From a virus: DNA of 24,697 nucleotides. The position numbers were made by a program, and so were the translations under genes. Within the stretch, counting starts at the first letter, position 1, and every line of letters begins with the position of its first letter. The notes beneath the pieces were generated by a model. It was not told the DNA's origin and did not search any database. It saw nothing but the letters and a program-made list of their open reading frames with translations. The stretch spans positions 1-24,697 of the IMG/VR virus record IMGVR_UViG_3300047409_000038. The stretch is one strand, 5' to 3'. Shown here piece by piece: positions 14,245-24,697 of the stretch.

Positions 14245-14693
14245 GCCAAACTGCTACCATGCCGACGCTACGCCTTGTACCTCAAGCCGAAGTCGCCGCG
14301 CGTTGGGTTGAGTTTCGCACCATGCTGGACAGAGCCATCCAGCATGCGCGGGGAGAACTCGAAGTCGACGACATTCTTTCCGGCGTGCTGGTCGGTGCTA
14401 TCGGTGTGCTGGCGCAGGAAGAAGGGGACACGTTGGAGTTGCTGTTCGCCTTTGAAGTCATCAACTACCCACGGCAGTCGGTGTTCAACATCATTGCTAT
14501 GGCGGGCAAGAACTTCGCCGGTCTTCCGTCCTGCTGGGACTTGATCGACAAACTCGCCACCAATATGGAAGCGTCCGTCGTGCGGTGCTATGTGCGCCCT
14601 GCGGTCGCCCGCCGTATCAAGCGGTTATTCCCCGACACGCAGCAAGCGTACGTCGTCATGGAGCGGGAGGTGCATCATGCGGGTCTTCACTAG
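14241..14693 (+). CDS. GNAT-fold-like phage protein
   Basis: This encodes a 150-residue protein starting at ATG 14241 (MSQTATMPTLRLVPQAEVAA), overlapping the previous stop by four bases; the ATG at 14259 is a possible alternative. The plan (basic first strand TLRLVPQ, helix, TLELLFAFEVINYPRQSVFNI, then CWDLIDKLATNMEASVVRCY and a final strand with VVMEREVHH) matches small podovirus proteins with an acetyltransferase-like fold that sit before the internal virion protein genes. A clear acetyl-CoA binding R/Q-x-x-G-x-G/A loop is not visible, so enzymatic activity is doubtful and a structural role is as likely. Its 3' end overlaps the next gene by 17 bases. Confidence 0.6.
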   Translation: MSQTATMPTLRLVPQAEVAARWVEFRTMLDRAIQHARGELEVDDILSGVLVGAIGVLAQEEGDTLELLFAFEVINYPRQSVFNIIAMAGKNFAGLPSCWDLIDKLATNMEASVVRCYVRPAVARRIKRLFPDTQQAYVVMEREVHHAGLH

Positions 14694-16278
14694 AGTCGTA
14701 TACGAATGGCGCGGCGACGAACTCGTTCAGACCGAAGCTGAGAGCTACGAGTACGACGGCCCGGTCGATCTCGCCAAGGGCGGCGGCAGCGCGCCGCAAA
14801 ACTACGCCAACCTCGACCGGCTGTACGGCATCCAAGCCGATCAAGCCGAATTCCTCGGGAACACCTTCAAGGGCACGGTCGCTCCTGCGTACAAGAGTTG
14901 GCTGGGCGAGGCGCAGGACTACGGCTCGCAGGCCAATCAGGAACAGGCAGCGCAGCGGGCGGGCAAGTCTGCCAGCGGTGCCATTAGCCAGCAGCAGCAG
15001 GCGCTGGAGGGGAACATGGCCTCGTACGGCCTCAACCCCGGCGATGCGCGCTGGCAGCAGGGCGTGCGCGAGATGGGCATTCAGGGTGCTGCGCAGCAGG
15101 CCGCTGCCGAGACGACGGCGCGCGACAGCATCCGCGACAAGGGTTTCGCCCGGACGCAGGACGCTATCGGCATGGGGATGGGCACGCCGACGCAGGCTTC
15201 GCAGGCTGCGAACTCCGCTGCCAACGCCGCTACTTCCAGCCTGACCGCGCAGAACCAAGCGCAGCAACAGCAGGCCAACTCGGTCGGCAACATCGTGCGC
15301 GCCGGGACGAATATCTGGGGCGCGTACAACGACTACGACAAGGGCAAAGCGGATGGTGGGATGGTAGAGAAGCGCGGCATCCTGCGGCTCAAAGGCGGCG
15401 GATATGTGCAGCGCCTCGCGAAGGGTGGTTTCGCAGGTGGGGGTGGTGGCGGTGGCTTCATGTCCACGCCACAGGTCGCCGCGCCGCCGCCCATGCGTCC
15501 CCCGCCCCCGCCAAGCGGCGCGGAGCAGGCGGGTGCCGCCGCCGCAACCCCAATGGGTATGCAGGCGATGAAGTACGGCGTCGGCAAGGCGGCGGAAGCG
15601 GGTGGGCAGGCGGCTGGGTCGCCGGGGGCACAGGCGTTCGGTCGCGGGCTGCAACTTTCACCCGCTGATGCGCGGGCGGGGCAGGCGGGGTACGAAGCCA
15701 GCGCCAAGGTCGCGGCAGAGAATGCGGTGGACAAGGCGATGGGTACGCCGGGGTATGCCGGTGCGAAAACGGCTGCTGACTCCGAGAGCGCGCTCGCGTC
15801 CGCGCAGGTGGGTGCCGGTCAGGACGCGGCAGCGCTGGAAGCCGCGCAGGCAGGGGCAACGACTGCTGCTGACGCCGAAACCGCCCTCGCTTCCGCGCAG
15901 GCTGCTGAAGCTGCCGCCGCTGCCGACGCTGCTGCGACGGCTGGAACCGTGGGTGGACTGGAAGCGGCGGGTGCTGGCATGGGCGCGGCGGCGGCGCTGG
16001 GCACGGCAGTCCCGGTGGTCGGCGCGGGCCTCGCGCTGTACGGCATCGGCAACGCGGCGGGGTGGTGGGCGGATGGCGGCGAGGTCAATCCCGGCTCGCA
16101 GGGGCAGACCGGCGAGGTCGATGGCCCCGGTGGACCCAAGGATGACGAGGTGATGGCGGCGCTCTCTGACGGCGAGTTCGTCATGCCGGTGGGGGCGGTC
16201 AAGTTCTTCGGCATCGACCGGCTGGAGAAGATGCGCCAGAAGGGTCTGGAGCACGAGAAGCAATTGGGGATCGCATGA
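14677..16278 (+). CDS. Probable internal virion (ejection) protein with Gly motif tail
   Basis: This encodes a 533-residue protein. GGGAGG (14665-14670) is six bases from the ATG at 14677, which sets the start inside the previous gene. Residues 1-215 are Gln/Ala-rich helices (SGAISQQQQALEGNMASYGL), as in T7 gp14-type ejection proteins. Residues about 225-275 carry GG motifs (ADGGMVEKRG, LKGGGYVQRLAKGGFAGGGG). An Ala-rich helical repeat follows (ALASAQ twice). A hydrophobic segment near 445-465 (GTAVPVVGAGLALYGIG) could enter a membrane. The C-terminal motif GEVDGPGGPKDDEVMAALSD then GEFVMP (residues about 479-504) recurs in phage tape measure and internal proteins. With the next two large genes it fits a three-protein ejection set. 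Confidence 0.72.
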   Translation: MRVFTRVVYEWRGDELVQTEAESYEYDGPVDLAKGGGSAPQNYANLDRLYGIQADQAEFLGNTFKGTVAPAYKSWLGEAQDYGSQANQEQAAQRAGKSASGAISQQQQALEGNMASYGLNPGDARWQQGVREMGIQGAAQQAAAETTARDSIRDKGFARTQDAIGMGMGTPTQASQAANSAANAATSSLTAQNQAQQQQANSVGNIVRAGTNIWGAYNDYDKGKADGGMVEKRGILRLKGGGYVQRLAKGGFAGGGGGGGFMSTPQVAAPPPMRPPPPPSGAEQAGAAAATPMGMQAMKYGVGKAAEAGGQAAGSPGAQAFGRGLQLSPADARAGQAGYEASAKVAAENAVDKAMGTPGYAGAKTAADSESALASAQVGAGQDAAALEAAQAGATTAADAETALASAQAAEAAAAADAAATAGTVGGLEAAGAGMGAAAALGTAVPVVGAGLALYGIGNAAGWWADGGEVNPGSQGQTGEVDGPGGPKDDEVMAALSDGEFVMPVGAVKFFGIDRLEKMRQKGLEHEKQLGIA

Positions 16279-17987: not shown

Positions 17988-20900
17988 ATGGCTTTCGACA
18001 GTCTCCGTACCAAAATCCCGTGGATGAAGGATTTGTCCGACGACGAGATTTTGCTAAAGACGTCGGCAGCTACGGGCATGGACCCGAAGGAGATTGCCGA
18101 CTATTACGGGTACGACGCGCCCTCGTCGATGATGGGCAAGGAGTTGTCGGCTGGGTGGGAGAATTACAAGGCGGGCATGGGCCACATCGGTTCAGCGATG
18201 GGCATCCCCGGCGCGGCGGAATGGACTGCGAAAAAGAAAGCCAAGGCGGAAGCGCTGCAATCTCTGTCCACGGCCCCGCACTCGTTCGAGGAGATGAAGT
18301 TCGGCGACCCCGAGAAGGGAGCGCTGCCGTATGTCGGGCAACTCTTTGCAAGCTCAGCCCCGTACATGGCCGAAGCGGCGGGCTACACGCTCGCTGACGT
18401 GGCGACGGGTGGCGCGCTGACGCCTGCGATCCTCGCTCGCTACGCCCCCGCTGCTGCACGGCTTGGCGTCACCGTGCCCGAGTTCCTTGGCGGGCAGGGG
18501 GTCAGGGCCGGTGCCACGTTCGCCGAGCGGCGCGCTGCGCTCGCGGCGGCGGAAGAATCAGCCCCCGCCTTGGCCCGCACGGCCATGATCCCGGCAGTGA
18601 CCTACCCGTCCTCGCTGGGCGACGTGCTGGGCAACCAGCAGGAAGAGGCGGGTAAGTACAACCTGCCACGCGCGATGGCCGCAGCGTTGCCGTACTCGGC
18701 GCTTAACATCCTCGGGCTGGAGGGTGCGGTCACCAAGGGCGCACTCCCTCGGCTGGGCATCAAGAGTCTGGAAAAGAACATGGCGGGCCGCGCCGCGTCG
18801 GGTGTGCTCGCCACAGGTGCGTCGGAAGCGGTCAACGAGACTGGGCAGGAAGTGATGAACCAGTGGGGGCGGATGGGTGTGAATCCCAACGCCACGTTCA
18901 CTGATCCCGGTGCGCTTGAGCGGTACAAGGAGTCGGCCATCGGCGGCGCGATCCTCGGTGGCCTTCCCGGCTCACTGCATGCCTTTGGCGGTCATCGTGG
19001 ACCGCTCGACACCAAGCAACCTGCTGACCTGACCAAGCGCCTGCCCGACCAAGATTACGCGGAGCAGTTCGGGTCGCACTTCGCACCCGAGGGGTTGGGT
19101 CTGCGCACGCCGGAGGAACACGCGGCCTACACGCAGAAGCAGGCCGAAGACGACCTCATGGCACGGCTCAATCCGGGCGCTGCGCCTGCCGCGCCTGTGT
19201 ATGGGACCGATGCCGTCGGCGAGATGGAACGTGCGGCTGGGGTCGCTCCCGGTACCTTTGCGCCGGTCCCTGCTGCTGCCAAGGTCAAGCCCAAGGCCGC
19301 AGCCGACGCCGCCACGACTGCTGCCGCCCCTGCCACCGCTGCTGCGACGGTCGACCCGGTGCTCCAGCAGGTCGAAGCCACGCGGGCAGAAATTCTCGAC
19401 GCGCACGCGCGGTTGTTCCCCGAGAAGCACGCAGCGCGAGCGGACAGACCCTACCTGACCCATCAGGAGCTTGTCCGGTGGACAGGCAACCCGAAGACGG
19501 TGGATGAGGCCGTCGCCACGCTCAAGTCGAAAATTGTTGGTGCGCTTACGCAGCCGGGCAAGGGCAAGATGGCCCGGAGAGCCAACGCGGAGGACATGCT
19601 CCGGCTGCACGACGAGCTTCTCGGCCTGCCGGAAGATCAGCGCCTGTCGCTGGATGACTGGGAAGCCAACCTCAAGGCCGAGAGCGCGCTCGCCGCTGCC
19701 AAGGTCGGGGATGCAGGCAAGTTGCCCGGTGCAGTCACGACGGTTGAGCCAAAGACGCTTGAACAGGAAGCTGCGTTGGCGAAACTCCGTGAGCGGGTGG
19801 CGGCAGGCGAAGCACCGTTTATCGACTACGAAACTCAGGGGGATGGTTCCATCACTGTCTACGCCAAGGGGATCGGGTCGGTTGACAGCAAGTGGAAGGT
19901 CAAGCTCGACCTGACACCAGAAGAACAAAGGGCGGCGAAGAAAGCTATCGCGCTGGATAACCTCGCCGAAACAGCGGAAGAGAAAGCTGAAGCGAAGCAA
20001 GCAATGCAGGATGCGGTTGGGGCTGCGGCTGCGCGGCATGCGGGTGTCGCTCCTACTGCAACCGCCGCACCGACGTCCACCGCACCTGTGCCGGGGGTGT
20101 GGCACGTCGTAGAACGCATGGGGAAGTTCTACATAGGCAACGCCAGCAAAGATGGCAGAAGCAGGGAGGAGCAGGGAGACTTCCCCACACGTCAGGCAGC
20201 GCAGGCATGGGCAGATAAACTCAACGCTGACATAACGCCGAAGGGTGCCACCACTACCGAAGTGGAAACCCCGCCTGCGGCACCGGCAACTCCCACCGAG
20301 GAAGAGCGCGTCGCGAAGCGGGAGCAGCTTACTACCGCCATCAGGGGTGGCTTGACCGACAAGGAGTGGGAAGCGCTCCGGCTCACACGCGGCAAGGAGG
20401 AGAACCTCGCGGGGGGCGTGGAGAAGACCGCCGAGGAGTTGGCGAAGGAGCAGGCGGCAGACGAGACGGCAGCGTACCGGACGGAAGACGACGAGGGCGA
20501 TGGCGGGGGAGCGCCCGAGGAACAGCGCGCCGATACGATACGCGGCACCGCTGCCAAGCTGGGTCTTGCGCCATCGACGTTCCAAGGTGTGCTGAAACGG
20601 GCGCAGGAAAAGGTCGCGGCCCTCGCCGCCCAACATGGAATTACCGAGGACGACGCCAACGAACTGCTGGGCTTGCAGTCGAGCTACGACGTTGCGGCGG
20701 TCGACTTCGCATCTACGGGCTACTCGGGAAAGGAGCGGGTTGCCACAGTTGACGACCGCCCGGAGTTGACGGGAGAGGCGTACGACACGACGCATGGCGA
20801 AGCGGAAGCCGCAGCCACCGAAGGCGAGGGTGAAGGTGAAGAAGTCGCCGTCGAAGGCAAGAAGAAAGAGGTGCAGCCCGAGAACAAGTGGGTCGACGCG

Positions 20901-23900
20901 CAGGGCCAGTCCATCTCGCACGCTGACGTGCAGGATGCGGCGGAAGATTACGGTAACCACGAGATGGGGTACGCGGCAGGCGATCCTGCGTGGGGGCAGT
21001 TGTCACCCAAGCTCCAGCTACAGTGGGTCCGTGGTTACCTCGCGGCACACACCATGTACCCGAAGACGAAGCAGGCACCGGAGCGGCGCAAGTTCACCGA
21101 CGTCGTGCGTACGGCCATGGCGGAAGAACAGGAGCAACCCAATGAAGCAGACACCGATACAGCAGGCGCTGACGAAGGGGCAGGCGCAGACCGTCAAGCA
21201 GAAGAAGGCGCAGATGACGCCGGAAGAACTGAAGGCGGCGAACAAGAAGTGGGCGGCGTTTCAGGAACAGATGAGAAAGCAGATACGGGACGAGTACCAC
21301 CTGCCGCAACCGAAGGTGAAAAGCCTGCCGACGCTGAAAAAGCTGGGGGAGGAACCGAAACCGCCCCAGTCGTAAAGCGCAAGCGGAAGGTCGCCGGGGG
21401 CAAGGCGGAAGCCGTATCCACGCCCGAGCCGGAACCGGAGATACCCGAGACGACGGGCGAGCGTGCGCTGCGCAAGTGGAACGAAGCCAAGGCCATCGCG
21501 CCGGAGCTTGGCAACTGGGGCGACCTGTCGCATCAGGCACGGAAAATATTCACCGCTGCGGAGGAGAAGGACCAGAAGCTCGCCGATGCGATGAAGCTGA
21601 AACAGGAGGAAGGGAAGCTCCGCGATCAGCACGGCAACATCGTGACGCCGCGTGATGACACGAAAAAAGAAGAGAAGCCTGCCAAGAAGCCGACGAACAA
21701 CTTCGAGCGGGCGAAGCAGATGGAAGCACTCGCCGACGAGAACGATGCGAAGGGCAGGCCCGTAGTCGCACGGCTGCTGCGCGAACGCGCTGCGGAAATC
21801 CGTACGGAACCCGAACCCGAGGAAGGCGCGCCCAAGGAGCCGCCAGCCGAAGGTGGCAACATGCTGAGTGCCATCCGGGCTGAACCGGGCGTGGACATGG
21901 TACGGATGGCGAAGCTGTTGGGGCCGCAACTCTATGGCAATCTCAACGACATCGGCCCCGTCACCATCAAGGAGTTGTTCCAGAACGCATTCGACGCCAT
22001 CAAGGATGCGATCAAGCTGGGCAACCAAAGAAGTGGCGAGATTTCAGTCAGCCTTGACGAGAACGCACGCACGATCACGTTGACCGACGACGGCGCTGGC
22101 ATGACGCCGGAGATCATCAACAAGGCGTTCCTGACGCTGGCCGGGACGAAGAAGGAAACCGACCGCTCATCGGGTGGCCTCGGCATTGCCAAGATGCTGT
22201 TCCTGTTTGGCAACGAATCGCTGTCGCTGAAGACGGTGCGCAACGGTGTCGAAAGCACGCTGAATACGTCCGGTACCCAGTTGATGGAGTCGTTTTCCGA
22301 TCCGACGAAAGCACCGGACATCCATACAAAGAAAACCACCGACCCATCGGGCACGACGATAACAGTCAAGGTGCCCAAGACTTTCTATAACGAGGCGACC
22401 GACACCACCGACGAGATCAAGTTTCCTCCTCGGTATCGGGCCAGAGAAATACTGGAATCAAGTCCGCTGTTTGAGCCAATCAGTGTCAAGCTTAACGGGG
22501 ATTTGATAGACATTGGCAACAACTTCCCCGCAGATGAGTGGACGGTGCTGGCCGTGCCGAAGTTCGCATGGGGCAAGGTCCGTGTGTTGGTGAAGCCGAT
22601 GGAATATCCGGGCTTTGAGAACGTGACCATGCTGTCGAACGGCATCGTTCAGTTCTATGCCAAGATTGGCAAAGAACCCGGTGATCCGTTTTCTGCTCCA
22701 GCGCCCTACAAGTTCTTTTTCAACATCGAGCCGGATGTAAAAGCCGACGCCCCGAACTACCCGATTGCGCTCAACCGGAAAGGGTTCTCGCGTTCCGCCG
22801 AGAGTGACTTCAAGACGTTGCTGAACTACCTCGCCGCCATGTACGCCAACACGGTGAGCGAGCAAAGTTCGCAGTCGTTTGGGGCGCTATCGCTATTTTC
22901 GGAGGATGGCAAAACTGAAAAAGAAGTCGACCTCAACGTACCCAAGGCGGCAGCGGGCACTACGCTGAACATCAACAAGGGCGACAAGGTCGAGTTGCGC
23001 GATGGACGGATGTACGTCAACAACCGGGCGATGCCGGAGTTGACGAAGGAAGACCTGAAAGCAATGAAGCACGACCCCGGACAATTCCGGGTCAGTCAGG
23101 ACTTGATCGACCCCAACAAGTTGATCGTCCACGACAACGTGCTGCTCAATGACAAGCCCTATCTGGACGAGGCGCGGGCTGCACTCGGGGAAGACGCAGT
23201 CAACGGTTATCTGCTTGGCTTCGCCCGTGCGTTCAAGCGCATACGCGATGCTGCGGTGAAACTAGGCGGTGCGAAGTATGCCGACCTCGGCAGCGTGCCG
23301 GTCGGGGTAAGCATCGACACCAAGTATTACGGCGTCAACACCGTGGTTCCGTTCAAAGCCATGATGTTGAATCCAACTGTGTTCAAGAGCGACAACATCG
23401 ACGACATGCCGATAGCGTTCGCTGGCACCATGGTCCATGAAATAGCGCACCACCCCGAGCGCAATCACAGCGAGACAGGGTTCATCCCCGAGGTGCAGCG
23501 GATGCTTGTTACCTTGTCGCTGTCGGACGATGTGCAACGGGCAGTGATGGACCTGCAACTCATCGCCAAGGATTATGGTCACGTATTCGATTATTTCGTC
23601 AAGGAGTCGAACAGTGGAAATCTCAAGAATCGTGGCATCCGCTTGGAAGGTGGGGAAGAACGCGTCGGGGGCGAAGGCGATGCTGGAGGGACTGCTGGGA
23701 CCAGCGGAAACCGAGGGAATGCGGAAGACAGCACCGGACTACGTCAATCTACTGGAGCGAGCAATCAAAACCGCGCCCAAGGCCAAGGACGCACAGGAGC
23801 ACCTGCGGCTAATGCGGGAAGGACGCTAGGAGCGGGACAGAGTTTCGCGTCGCGCAAACACCTGAGCAAAGTCCACGAGTTTGCACAAAGGCATGGCCTT

Positions 23901-24697
23901 GGGTTCATGATTACCGAGGACATCGCCGACCTCGCCGCTGCGAATGGCTTGGGGGAAGTGCGCGACTACGTCGAAGCCACCAAGCAGCGGGAAGGCGCGC
24001 GCCGGGAGTTCGAGGCTCCGGTAGCCAAGATCGCCGAGTTGTACGACCAACTGCCGGAACGCGAGCGCGGCACGGGCGCTGGCAGCGTCAACAAGTTCTT
24101 GCACGACGCGACTACCACTGGCAGTACCACTGGCATCAACGCGCTGTCGGCGACGGGGCAGCAACTGGTCAAGGCTGTGTTCCAGCATGGCAAGGACGTA
24201 CTCGCGCTCAAGAAGAAACTCATCGAGGACGAGGTCGGCGGGGAGTACAGCAAGCGCATCGCCCAAGAAACGGACGCTGCCAAGAAAGCCGAACTGGTCA
24301 AGGAGCGTGACCTAGTCCTGAGAAAGTTCAGCAAGCTGTGGACGAAGGGTCCGTCGGATACCTACGCGCCGCTCAAGCGGTTCGGCGACTATGTAGTGTC
24401 GGCCAAGTCCAAGGAGTATGTGCAGCATGAGGAGGGCAAGACCGACGCGGACAGGAAGTGGATCAGCGCCAACGAGTCAGACCCGGCTCACGTCCAGATG
24501 CACTTCGCCGACACCATGGCCGAGGCCGAGGCACTGGAAGCGCAGATCAAGCAGCAGTACGACTTCAAGGGTGGCAAGACCTACGCCGCCGCGCGCGAGG
24601 CCGACATCCACAACAGCCGCGACCTGTTCCGTGCCTTCCCGGTATTGCAGACGCGGCTCGAAGCCGAGTACCCGATGCTCGACGGCAAGCCATCGCC
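17988..24697 (+). CDS. Giant polyvalent/ejection protein with GHKL ATPase and zinc metallopeptidase (3' end outside window)
   Basis: The frame from ATG 17988 has no stop to the window end: at least 2,236 codons. It follows two ejection-type genes, so it is probably packaged and injected with the DNA. Residues 1-330 are Ala/Gly-rich with hydrophobic helices and could form a channel. About 340-700 is Ala/Pro linker and charged helices. A small beta-beta-alpha unit begins at W705. A GHKL ATPase lies at about 1310-1480: N box E1329, N1333, D1336; G1 box DDGAGM (1367-1372); G2 box SSGGLGIAK (1394-1402). After a middle region comes a zincin: H1817-E-I-A-H1821-H-P-E-R-N-H1827. YAPLKRFGDYVV from 2126 resembles regions of other giant phage proteins. 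No lytic transglycosylase motif is seen. The ATG has no clear SD sequence, suggesting low expression. Two small genes are nested in its +1 frame. Confidence 0.85.
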   Translation, partial: MAFDSLRTKIPWMKDLSDDEILLKTSAATGMDPKEIADYYGYDAPSSMMGKELSAGWENYKAGMGHIGSAMGIPGAAEWTAKKKAKAEALQSLSTAPHSFEEMKFGDPEKGALPYVGQLFASSAPYMAEAAGYTLADVATGGALTPAILARYAPAAARLGVTVPEFLGGQGVRAGATFAERRAALAAAEESAPALARTAMIPAVTYPSSLGDVLGNQQEEAGKYNLPRAMAAALPYSALNILGLEGAVTKGALPRLGIKSLEKNMAGRAASGVLATGASEAVNETGQEVMNQWGRMGVNPNATFTDPGALERYKESAIGGAILGGLPGSLHAFGGHRGPLDTKQPADLTKRLPDQDYAEQFGSHFAPEGLGLRTPEEHAAYTQKQAEDDLMARLNPGAAPAAPVYGTDAVGEMERAAGVAPGTFAPVPAAAKVKPKAAADAATTAAAPATAAATVDPVLQQVEATRAEILDAHARLFPEKHAARADRPYLTHQELVRWTGNPKTVDEAVATLKSKIVGALTQPGKGKMARRANAEDMLRLHDELLGLPEDQRLSLDDWEANLKAESALAAAKVGDAGKLPGAVTTVEPKTLEQEAALAKLRERVAAGEAPFIDYETQGDGSITVYAKGIGSVDSKWKVKLDLTPEEQRAAKKAIALDNLAETAEEKAEAKQAMQDAVGAAAARHAGVAPTATAAPTSTAPVPGVWHVVERMGKFYIGNASKDGRSREEQGDFPTRQAAQAWADKLNADITPKGATTTEVETPPAAPATPTEEERVAKREQLTTAIRGGLTDKEWEALRLTRGKEENLAGGVEKTAEELAKEQAADETAAYRTEDDEGDGGGAPEEQRADTIRGTAAKLGLAPSTFQGVLKRAQEKVAALAAQHGITEDDANELLGLQSSYDVAAVDFASTGYSGKERVATVDDRPELTGEAYDTTHGEAEAAATEGEGEGEEVAVEGKKKEVQPENKWVDAQGQSISHADVQDAAEDYGNHEMGYAAGDPAWGQLSPKLQLQWVRGYLAAHTMYPKTKQAPERRKFTDVVRTAMAEEQEQPNEADTDTAGADEGAGADRQAEEGADDAGRTEGGEQEVGGVSGTDEKADTGRVPPAATEGEKPADAEKAGGGTETAPVVKRKRKVAGGKAEAVSTPEPEPEIPETTGERALRKWNEAKAIAPELGNWGDLSHQARKIFTAAEEKDQKLADAMKLKQEEGKLRDQHGNIVTPRDDTKKEEKPAKKPTNNFERAKQMEALADENDAKGRPVVARLLRERAAEIRTEPEPEEGAPKEPPAEGGNMLSAIRAEPGVDMVRMAKLLGPQLYGNLNDIGPVTIKELFQNAFDAIKDAIKLGNQRSGEISVSLDENARTITLTDDGAGMTPEIINKAFLTLAGTKKETDRSSGGLGIAKMLFLFGNESLSLKTVRNGVESTLNTSGTQLMESFSDPTKAPDIHTKKTTDPSGTTITVKVPKTFYNEATDTTDEIKFPPRYRAREILESSPLFEPISVKLNGDLIDIGNNFPADEWTVLAVPKFAWGKVRVLVKPMEYPGFENVTMLSNGIVQFYAKIGKEPGDPFSAPAPYKFFFNIEPDVKADAPNYPIALNRKGFSRSAESDFKTLLNYLAAMYANTVSEQSSQSFGALSLFSEDGKTEKEVDLNVPKAAAGTTLNINKGDKVELRDGRMYVNNRAMPELTKEDLKAMKHDPGQFRVSQDLIDPNKLIVHDNVLLNDKPYLDEARAALGEDAVNGYLLGFARAFKRIRDAAVKLGGAKYADLGSVPVGVSIDTKYYGVNTVVPFKAMMLNPTVFKSDNIDDMPIAFAGTMVHEIAHHPERNHSETGFIPEVQRMLVTLSLSDDVQRAVMDLQLIAKDYGHVFDYFVKESNSGNLKNRGIRLEGGEERVGGEGDAGGTAGTSGNRGNAEDSTGLRQSTGASNQNRAQGQGRTGAPAANAGRTLGAGQSFASRKHLSKVHEFAQRHGLGFMITEDIADLAAANGLGEVRDYVEATKQREGARREFEAPVAKIAELYDQLPERERGTGAGSVNKFLHDATTTGSTTGINALSATGQQLVKAVFQHGKDVLALKKKLIEDEVGGEYSKRIAQETDAAKKAELVKERDLVLRKFSKLWTKGPSDTYAPLKRFGDYVVSAKSKEYVQHEEGKTDADRKWISANESDPAHVQMHFADTMAEAEALEAQIKQQYDFKGGKTYAAAREADIHNSRDLFRAFPVLQTRLEAEYPMLDGKPS
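21130..21134 (+). promoter_or_regulatory. Ribosome site of nested gene 21142-21375
   Basis: AGGAG lies seven bases before ATG 21142, inside the giant gene. This ideal spacing is the main evidence for the start of the nested gene; the giant gene's own start has no comparable signal. Confidence 0.6.
21142..21375 (+). CDS. Small Lys/Gln-rich gene nested in the +1 frame of the giant gene
   Basis: This encodes a 77-residue protein (MKQTPIQQALTKGQAQTVKQ at the start, helical KKWAAFQEQMRKQIRDEYHL in the middle, Pro/Lys-rich end). AGGAG is seven bases before the ATG. By hand count about 64 of 77 codons end in G or C in this frame, against about 27 of 78 in the giant frame over the same bases, so the genome's codon bias follows the nested frame. 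In the giant frame the stretch (residues about 1052-1129) is low-complexity Gly/Ala/Glu/Asp linker. The frame upstream of 21142 is Arg/Ser-rich and looks non-coding. The function is unknown; a small basic helical partner of the giant protein or of nucleic acid is possible. Confidence 0.62.
   Translation: MKQTPIQQALTKGQAQTVKQKKAQMTPEELKAANKKWAAFQEQMRKQIRDEYHLPQPKVKSLPTLKKLGEEPKPPQS
23601..23606 (+). promoter_or_regulatory. Ribosome site of nested gene 23614-23829
   Basis: AAGGAG lies seven bases before GTG 23614. The hexamer and its spacing decide this start over the ATG at 23575, which has only AAGGA two bases away. Confidence 0.6.
23614..23829 (+). CDS. Second small gene nested in the +1 frame of the giant gene (GTG start)
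   Basis: This encodes a 71-residue protein, helical and mildly basic: V/MEISRIVASAWKVGKNASG, then AKAMLEGLLGPAETEGMRKT and a final DAQEHLRLMREGR. AAGGAG precedes the GTG by seven bases. By hand count about 50 of 71 codons end in G or C in this frame, against about 33 of 72 in the giant frame. The overlapped giant-frame residues (about 1876-1948) are Gly/Asn/Gln/Ser-rich linker just after the metallopeptidase motif. It has the same relative frame (+1) as the nested gene 2.2 kb upstream, but I see no clear similarity between the two proteins. The function is unknown. A chance frame remains possible, though less likely given the start signal and codon bias. Confidence 0.6.
   Translation: MEISRIVASAWKVGKNASGAKAMLEGLLGPAETEGMRKTAPDYVNLLERAIKTAPKAKDAQEHLRLMREGR

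Follow-up and report, generated by a model that had tools for sequence, protein, structure and literature searches.

A small gene, ORF2, lies nested in the +1 frame of a giant phage protein gene in the window (the whole stretch analysed here, a 24.7 kb linear IMG/VR virus record), and it is an ancient overlapping gene, firmly tied to the module of GHKL ATPase and zincin metallopeptidase that the giant protein carries. Comparison of the sequences shows the overlap, its +1 phase, a fixed distance to the zincin, an internal ribosome-binding site, selection chiefly on the small frame and the transfer of gene and module together. The best explanation, which we hold to be probable, is that ORF2 is a separately translated helical protein acting as the dedicated partner of the ATPase-protease module.

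The capsid gene of the window is kin to capsid genes from several tailed phages. The giant gene (17988–24695; plus strand, as are its parts given below) sits at the 3′ end, where its open frame runs off the contig, with 2236 aa visible of a protein of at least this length. As a very large multidomain ORF with a zincin metallopeptidase, it has the make-up of a phage large polyvalent protein. The LPD/PolyVal signature domains are absent from its visible part, the C-terminus lying past the contig end; the giants of its relatives reach 4889 aa and bear LPD38/LPD39 and ART-PolyVal domains, such signatures being present in L004, L005, L013, L017, L018 and L076.

In the frame of the giant, a 36-member alignment and AF2/Foldseek define a conserved module (21867–23654) composed of a GHKL ATPase (about 21966–22379), an Hsp90/GyrB-type transducer region and a zincin. 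Pfam places HATPase_c at giant aa 1327–1464 (E 8e-08), and the domain was found in 36/36 module members, in which N40, D43, D74, G76, G78, G103, G106 and K109 are invariant; the N-box Asn/Asp, the G1 motif DxGxG and the G2 glycines, as in the GHKL superfamily, are all in place. Downstream, the motif HEIAHHPERNH (23436–23468) combines HExxH with a third His as metal ligand, which by its sequence marks the domain as a putative zincin metallopeptidase; H524, E525 and H528 are invariant, and H534 is kept in at least 90% of the 36 members. The AF2 model of the module (pLDDT 87) has TRAP1/Hsp90 as its best Foldseek match (E 3.4e-12) and consists of a GHKL ATPase and a transducer like those of TRAP1/Hsp90, GyrB, MutL and MORC, followed by the zincin. 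Comparison with T4 rIIA gave weak PHROGs matches, through the ATPase domain alone (E 0.097–0.3). A profile search of viral contigs recovered the module at 48 loci, within giant ORFs. No GHKL-zincin fusion within a phage giant was found among 50,697 phage records, cultured phages gave zero matches to the module, and a search of genome contigs returned generic GHKL proteins only.

An earlier note on this DNA had proposed that two nested +1-frame genes bracket the module, and a codon-usage scan based on the remaining genes of the phage confirmed that both exist. Frame 0 leads throughout the giant and flips to +1 only at 21142–21375 (ORF1) and 23614–23829 (ORF2). The score (+1 minus frame 0) is +0.49 for ORF1 (z 7.3) and +0.23 for ORF2 (z 6.2), compared to −1.20 ± 0.23 in the rest of the giant (maximum −0.67, 187 windows) and to a maximum of −0.27 in the other genes (404 windows). 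Both nested ORFs are real coding sequence. Elsewhere in the window, a +2-frame codon-usage signal was observed at 14547–14693, where ORF 14590–16278 begins; it is probably either an unlisted small gene or a sign that this ORF truly starts later.

In the window, ORF2 (23614–23829, 71 aa) starts 178 nt downstream of the HExxH codon, at a GTG preceded by the Shine-Dalgarno sequence AAGGAG (23601–23606) 7 nt ahead; the alternative start at ATG 23575 is less likely, because the relatives start at the residue that aligns with GTG 23614. Among the 20 new loci of the search with ORF2 only, which form an unbiased set, a Shine-Dalgarno-like 4-mer was present at the right distance in 20/20, versus a background of 9%. 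In most of the independently found relatives a +1-frame stop lies 15 nt before the ORF2 start, and in some others the distance is 0–9 nt. These sites, together with the close upstream stop, indicate that ORF2 is internally initiated rather than reached by frameshifting. It might be argued that a programmed +1 frameshift after the zincin cuts the giant short and gives it another C-terminus, from ORF2, since the +1 frame of ORF2 directly follows the domain boundary; however, such a shift would need to fall nearly on the ORF2 start codon, there is a +1 stop close upstream of it, and the start codon and Shine-Dalgarno sequence are conserved, which makes this reading very improbable.

A +1 ORF in the identical place was found in 43 zincin-bearing loci, and also in the remote loci L047 and L050; it was seen in every relative whose contig spans the spot. 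These nested ORFs align as one ORF2 family of environmental phages, present on no fewer than 60 viral contigs, which are related, so that the locus counts given here are not counts of independent events. The proteins of the relatives are 66–141 aa long depending on the start chosen (median 76), and mostly end 360–480 nt past HExxH. When leave-one-out profiles were built from sequences less than 50% identical to the test locus, ORF2 ranked top among the 111–383 six-frame ORFs of each contig in 39/40 loci, with E ≤ 1e-6 in 37/40; the median score was 50.5 bits for the nested frame versus 24.8 for the giant frame, the nested frame being higher in 36/40. This profile-level homology spans AT- and GC-rich phages. 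Moreover, the search with the ORF2 protein only returned 29 loci, 22 of them on contigs new to the analysis, and in 29/29 the ORF was fully nested, in the +1 frame, 181–193 nt after HExxH and within a giant with the GHKL motif.

The pattern of substitutions bears the mark of two coding frames. At giant codon positions 1, 2 and 3, the values are 0.59, 0.54 and 0.49 in the overlap versus 0.46, 0.34 and 0.68 in the module, that is, the wobble base of the giant is the slowest site in the overlap and the fastest in the module. A wobble-suppression scan of the whole giant, to which the location was not supplied, recovered ORF2 in 15/16 close pairs. Mean identity over all pairs is 0.29 for ORF2 versus 0.31 for the giant frame, and many close pairs favour ORF2. 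Both frames are conserved as coding, with the nested one under selection, as in an overlapping gene pair. The length of the ORF is by itself weak evidence at this GC content: in synonymous shuffles of the giant, a +1 ORF of at least 60 aa persisted in the slot at a mean of 16/40 loci, versus 39/40 observed. An artefact, with the long +1 frame simply forced by the low-complexity linker composition of the giant, has the result of the shuffles in its favour, but against it stand the 39 observed loci, the profile homology, the wobble suppression, the Shine-Dalgarno sites and the codon-usage flip, and we regard it as scarcely credible; that ORF2 is a real gene is practically certain.

Searches of Pfam, PHROGs, NCBIfam and PADLOC with the ORF2 profile gave no consistent match. 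Standard gene callers as a rule reject long ORFs nested on the same strand, which explains the absence of the family from Pfam, PHROGs and NCBIfam. Against the PDB, ORF2 had weak matches only, for example to designed TPR proteins, and none of the known inhibitor families matches it. Two weak matches in a Streptomyces phage, obtained in the search of cultured phages (E 0.6), were disregarded.

The AF2 model of ORF2 is a compact helical bundle (pLDDT 93.4, pTM 0.79, values to be read knowing that AF2 often assigns high confidence to short helical proteins), and the fold search retrieved generic bundles only, at no significance, a result that says nothing on fold novelty. Over its first dozen codons, ORF2 shares nucleotides with the end of the zincin domain, a conserved tail that reads NLxxRGxR in many giants, and beyond them the giant side of the overlap (23649–23829) is, by its residue composition over the relatives, a low-complexity linker: on average, 89% of its residues are disorder-promoting and 11% hydrophobic, compared to 33% hydrophobic in the preceding stretch and 29% in the ORF2 protein. 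A disordered giant frame facing an ORF2 predicted to be folded suggests that the nested frame folds, while the giant frame serves as a linker. The proposal that the small genes double as linkers of the giant protein is supported.

The flanks of the module were compared between relatives: similarity was found in 6/300 pairs upstream and in 37/325 downstream, and in 325/325 for the module itself; in L010 the module opens its ORF. As module and ORF2 stay together while the flanks change, the mobile unit consists of the GHKL domain, the transducer, the zincin and ORF2, and on the sequence comparisons it moves between otherwise unrelated polyvalent giants. What surrounds it differs from one giant to another. 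In L004 (9972–14384) the giant past ORF2 bears a NUDIX domain (E 4.5e-16) and LPD38; in L010 (9972–16244) the downstream region has a VbhA-antitoxin-like stretch (Pfam PF18495, E 0.001, below the cut-off), possibly with a Fic partner; in L033 (9769–10196 and 10166–13231) the giant is split, the first ORF stopping 50 aa past ORF2 and the remainder forming a separate overlapping ORF.

ORF1 does not belong to this unit. Its likeliest start is ATG 21142, with AGGAG (21130–21134) 7 nt upstream as Shine-Dalgarno sequence, and it ends at 21375, encoding a basic orphan protein of 77 aa; a longer frame opens at 20794, and its codon usage is not coding-like ahead of 21142. No homologue was detected in viral contigs or in relatives, a scan with the stretch of the giant around ORF1 found zero relatives, and cultured phages gave no match. 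The scan with the single protein turned up only L068, where the match is to the N-terminal end of a capsid-like gene that is not nested; this was rejected as a coincidence (direct phmmer E 0.043). In the closest relatives, L004, L005 and L006 (62, 57 and 51% module identity to the window), the giants have at the place of ORF1 a sequence entirely different from that of the window. ORF1 is thus a real, lineage-specific nested gene outside the module and ORF2.

These results revise the earlier note, which had seen in 21130–23829 a single cassette of about 2.7 kb with a nested gene close to either side of the module. The closeness applies to ORF2, 178 nt after HExxH, and not to ORF1, whose stop is about 490 nt upstream of the conserved module. 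A mobile cassette exists, made of the module and ORF2. The larger block, joining ORF1, module and ORF2, has in its favour that both ORFs are in the +1 frame with coding-type codon usage in the window, but ORF1 is missing from all relatives and these keep the module with a different upstream linker, an outcome that the note itself had named as counting against its proposal and that holds here on the ORF1 side, so that we consider a cassette of this extent highly unlikely. The suggestion that the small genes are left over from an earlier arrangement is improbable in the case of ORF2, since selection acts on it and a ribosome-binding site precedes it; among the roles of regulator, inhibitor or partner that had been put forward for it, we favour that of partner.

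That ORF2 might be a real gene with a function unrelated to the module, for instance in the virion, in regulation or in host takeover, trapped beside the zincin merely by the overlap, has to be considered in the light of what else is nested in such giants. A second +1 family, here named U and unrelated to ORF2, occurs at about 17 loci, ahead of the module. It was first exposed by the wobble scan in the L018 group and then followed with a profile built from 5 members; its proteins (57–65 aa) share the pattern ...LPeeLqkLs..DW..L..LLe.L..EK..S.vH, lie at a variable distance (345–1884 nt) ahead of the GHKL motif, have in most cases AAGGAG, GGAGG or similar 5–7 nt upstream of the start, and have no counterpart in Pfam or PHROGs. 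Members are found at L018:6373–6546, L021:6193–6366, L035:6367–6540, L045:1766–1939, L007:3184–3381, L015:7372–7563, L012:6355–6528, L031:5550–5726, L048:7018–7203, L026:6382–6573, L027:6559–6753 and L044:6583–6777. A weak copy was observed at L076:5914–6189, nested in the +1 frame of a 2004-aa giant with LPD38 and a zincin-like HExxH, without the GHKL module. Codon-usage flips also revealed homologous nested +1 ORFs at L013:4822–5100 and L034:1–198, the former being the strongest flip across loci and lying immediately upstream of a different zincin-like domain (GHEVLGH), and a nested +1 ORF at L006:14266–14445, with GAGG ahead of its ATG, within a glycine-arginine-rich linker preceding another HEILHH domain.

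Taken together, family U and the nested ORFs of L013/L034 and L006 suggest that nested genes are recurrent in these giants, and their linkers may simply tolerate overprinting, as an unrelated function of ORF2 would have it. By contrast, ORF2 never occurred without the module in the 29/29 loci of the ORF2-only search, and the pair persists though both flanks change. An unrelated function is thus rather unlikely, and that the function of ORF2 is tied to the module is likely. A general rule, by which the linkers of enzyme modules in giant injected phage proteins harbour antidote or partner genes in another frame, is a tentative proposal that we consider possible, yet doubtful. If it were true, recombination could not part module from partner, the partner would be made in the producer cell outside the delivered polypeptide, and ORF2, family U, ORF1 and the nested ORFs of L013 and L006 would be different families of hidden partners.

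As for the way in which a dedicated partner could act, ribosomes would initiate on ORF2 inside the mRNA of the giant, yielding free ORF2 protein, which would bind the module; most likely it would hold back the ATP-driven protease, or keep it in its proper fold, inside the producer until packaging or injection of the giant. If the giant is delivered alone, the partner would be left behind, because the giant polypeptide excludes the ORF2 sequence, and the activity would be released. Polyvalent proteins are thought to be delivered along with the DNA and possibly to be self-processed by their own zincins (Iyer et al. 2017, PMC5512222), and a partner made in the producer outside the giant chain would fit such a holding or inhibiting role. 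That ORF2 is an inhibitor or an assembly chaperone, rather than an activator or something else, has in our view about an even chance. An activator or obligate subunit of the ATPase-protease, co-chaperone-like or a substrate adaptor, would suit the resemblance of the ATPase part to Hsp90/TRAP1. Hsp90s operate with small co-factors, and the gene overlap would also secure co-production; however, a subunit required after injection would need separate packaging, and we regard an activating role as fairly unlikely. A dedicated partner of the module, as proposed above, makes ORF2 a ready candidate for the study of an otherwise unstudied Hsp90-like ATPase-protease, and offers a testable case of polyvalent proteins whose linkers hide control genes.

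Several known systems share features with this arrangement. The large polyvalent proteins of phages (Iyer et al. 2017, PMC5512222) are, like that of the window, giant multidomain proteins with a zincin metallopeptidase; the main text of that study mentions neither GHKL/Hsp90 ATPases nor overlap, and the nested genes described here are an added layer. The N-terminal two thirds of the module have the predicted fold of Hsp90/TRAP1, GyrB, MutL and MORC, that is a GHKL ATPase with a transducer, but differ from these in being joined to a zincin inside a giant phage protein. In the Rpn intragenic antitoxins (PMC10327210) a small protein is likewise translated within a long gene, and the small product blocks the long one; the Rpn small proteins, however, share frame and C-terminal sequence with the long protein, whereas at every locus ORF2 uses the +1 frame. 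The phage-derived metzincin and TIMP-like inhibitor pair of Listeria (PMC8235301) similarly sets a metalloprotease gene beside that of a small putative inhibitor, but these are separate genes with a secreted protease, and they have no known link of sequence or fold to the pair described here. Finally, overprinted viral genes (reviewed in PMC8227390) lie, like ORF2, inside a longer gene but in another frame. Unlike those cases, the overlapping pair described here travels as a single cassette between unrelated giant genes and is conserved across very divergent phages, and the disordered frame is that of the long gene, whereas the nested frame is predicted to fold.
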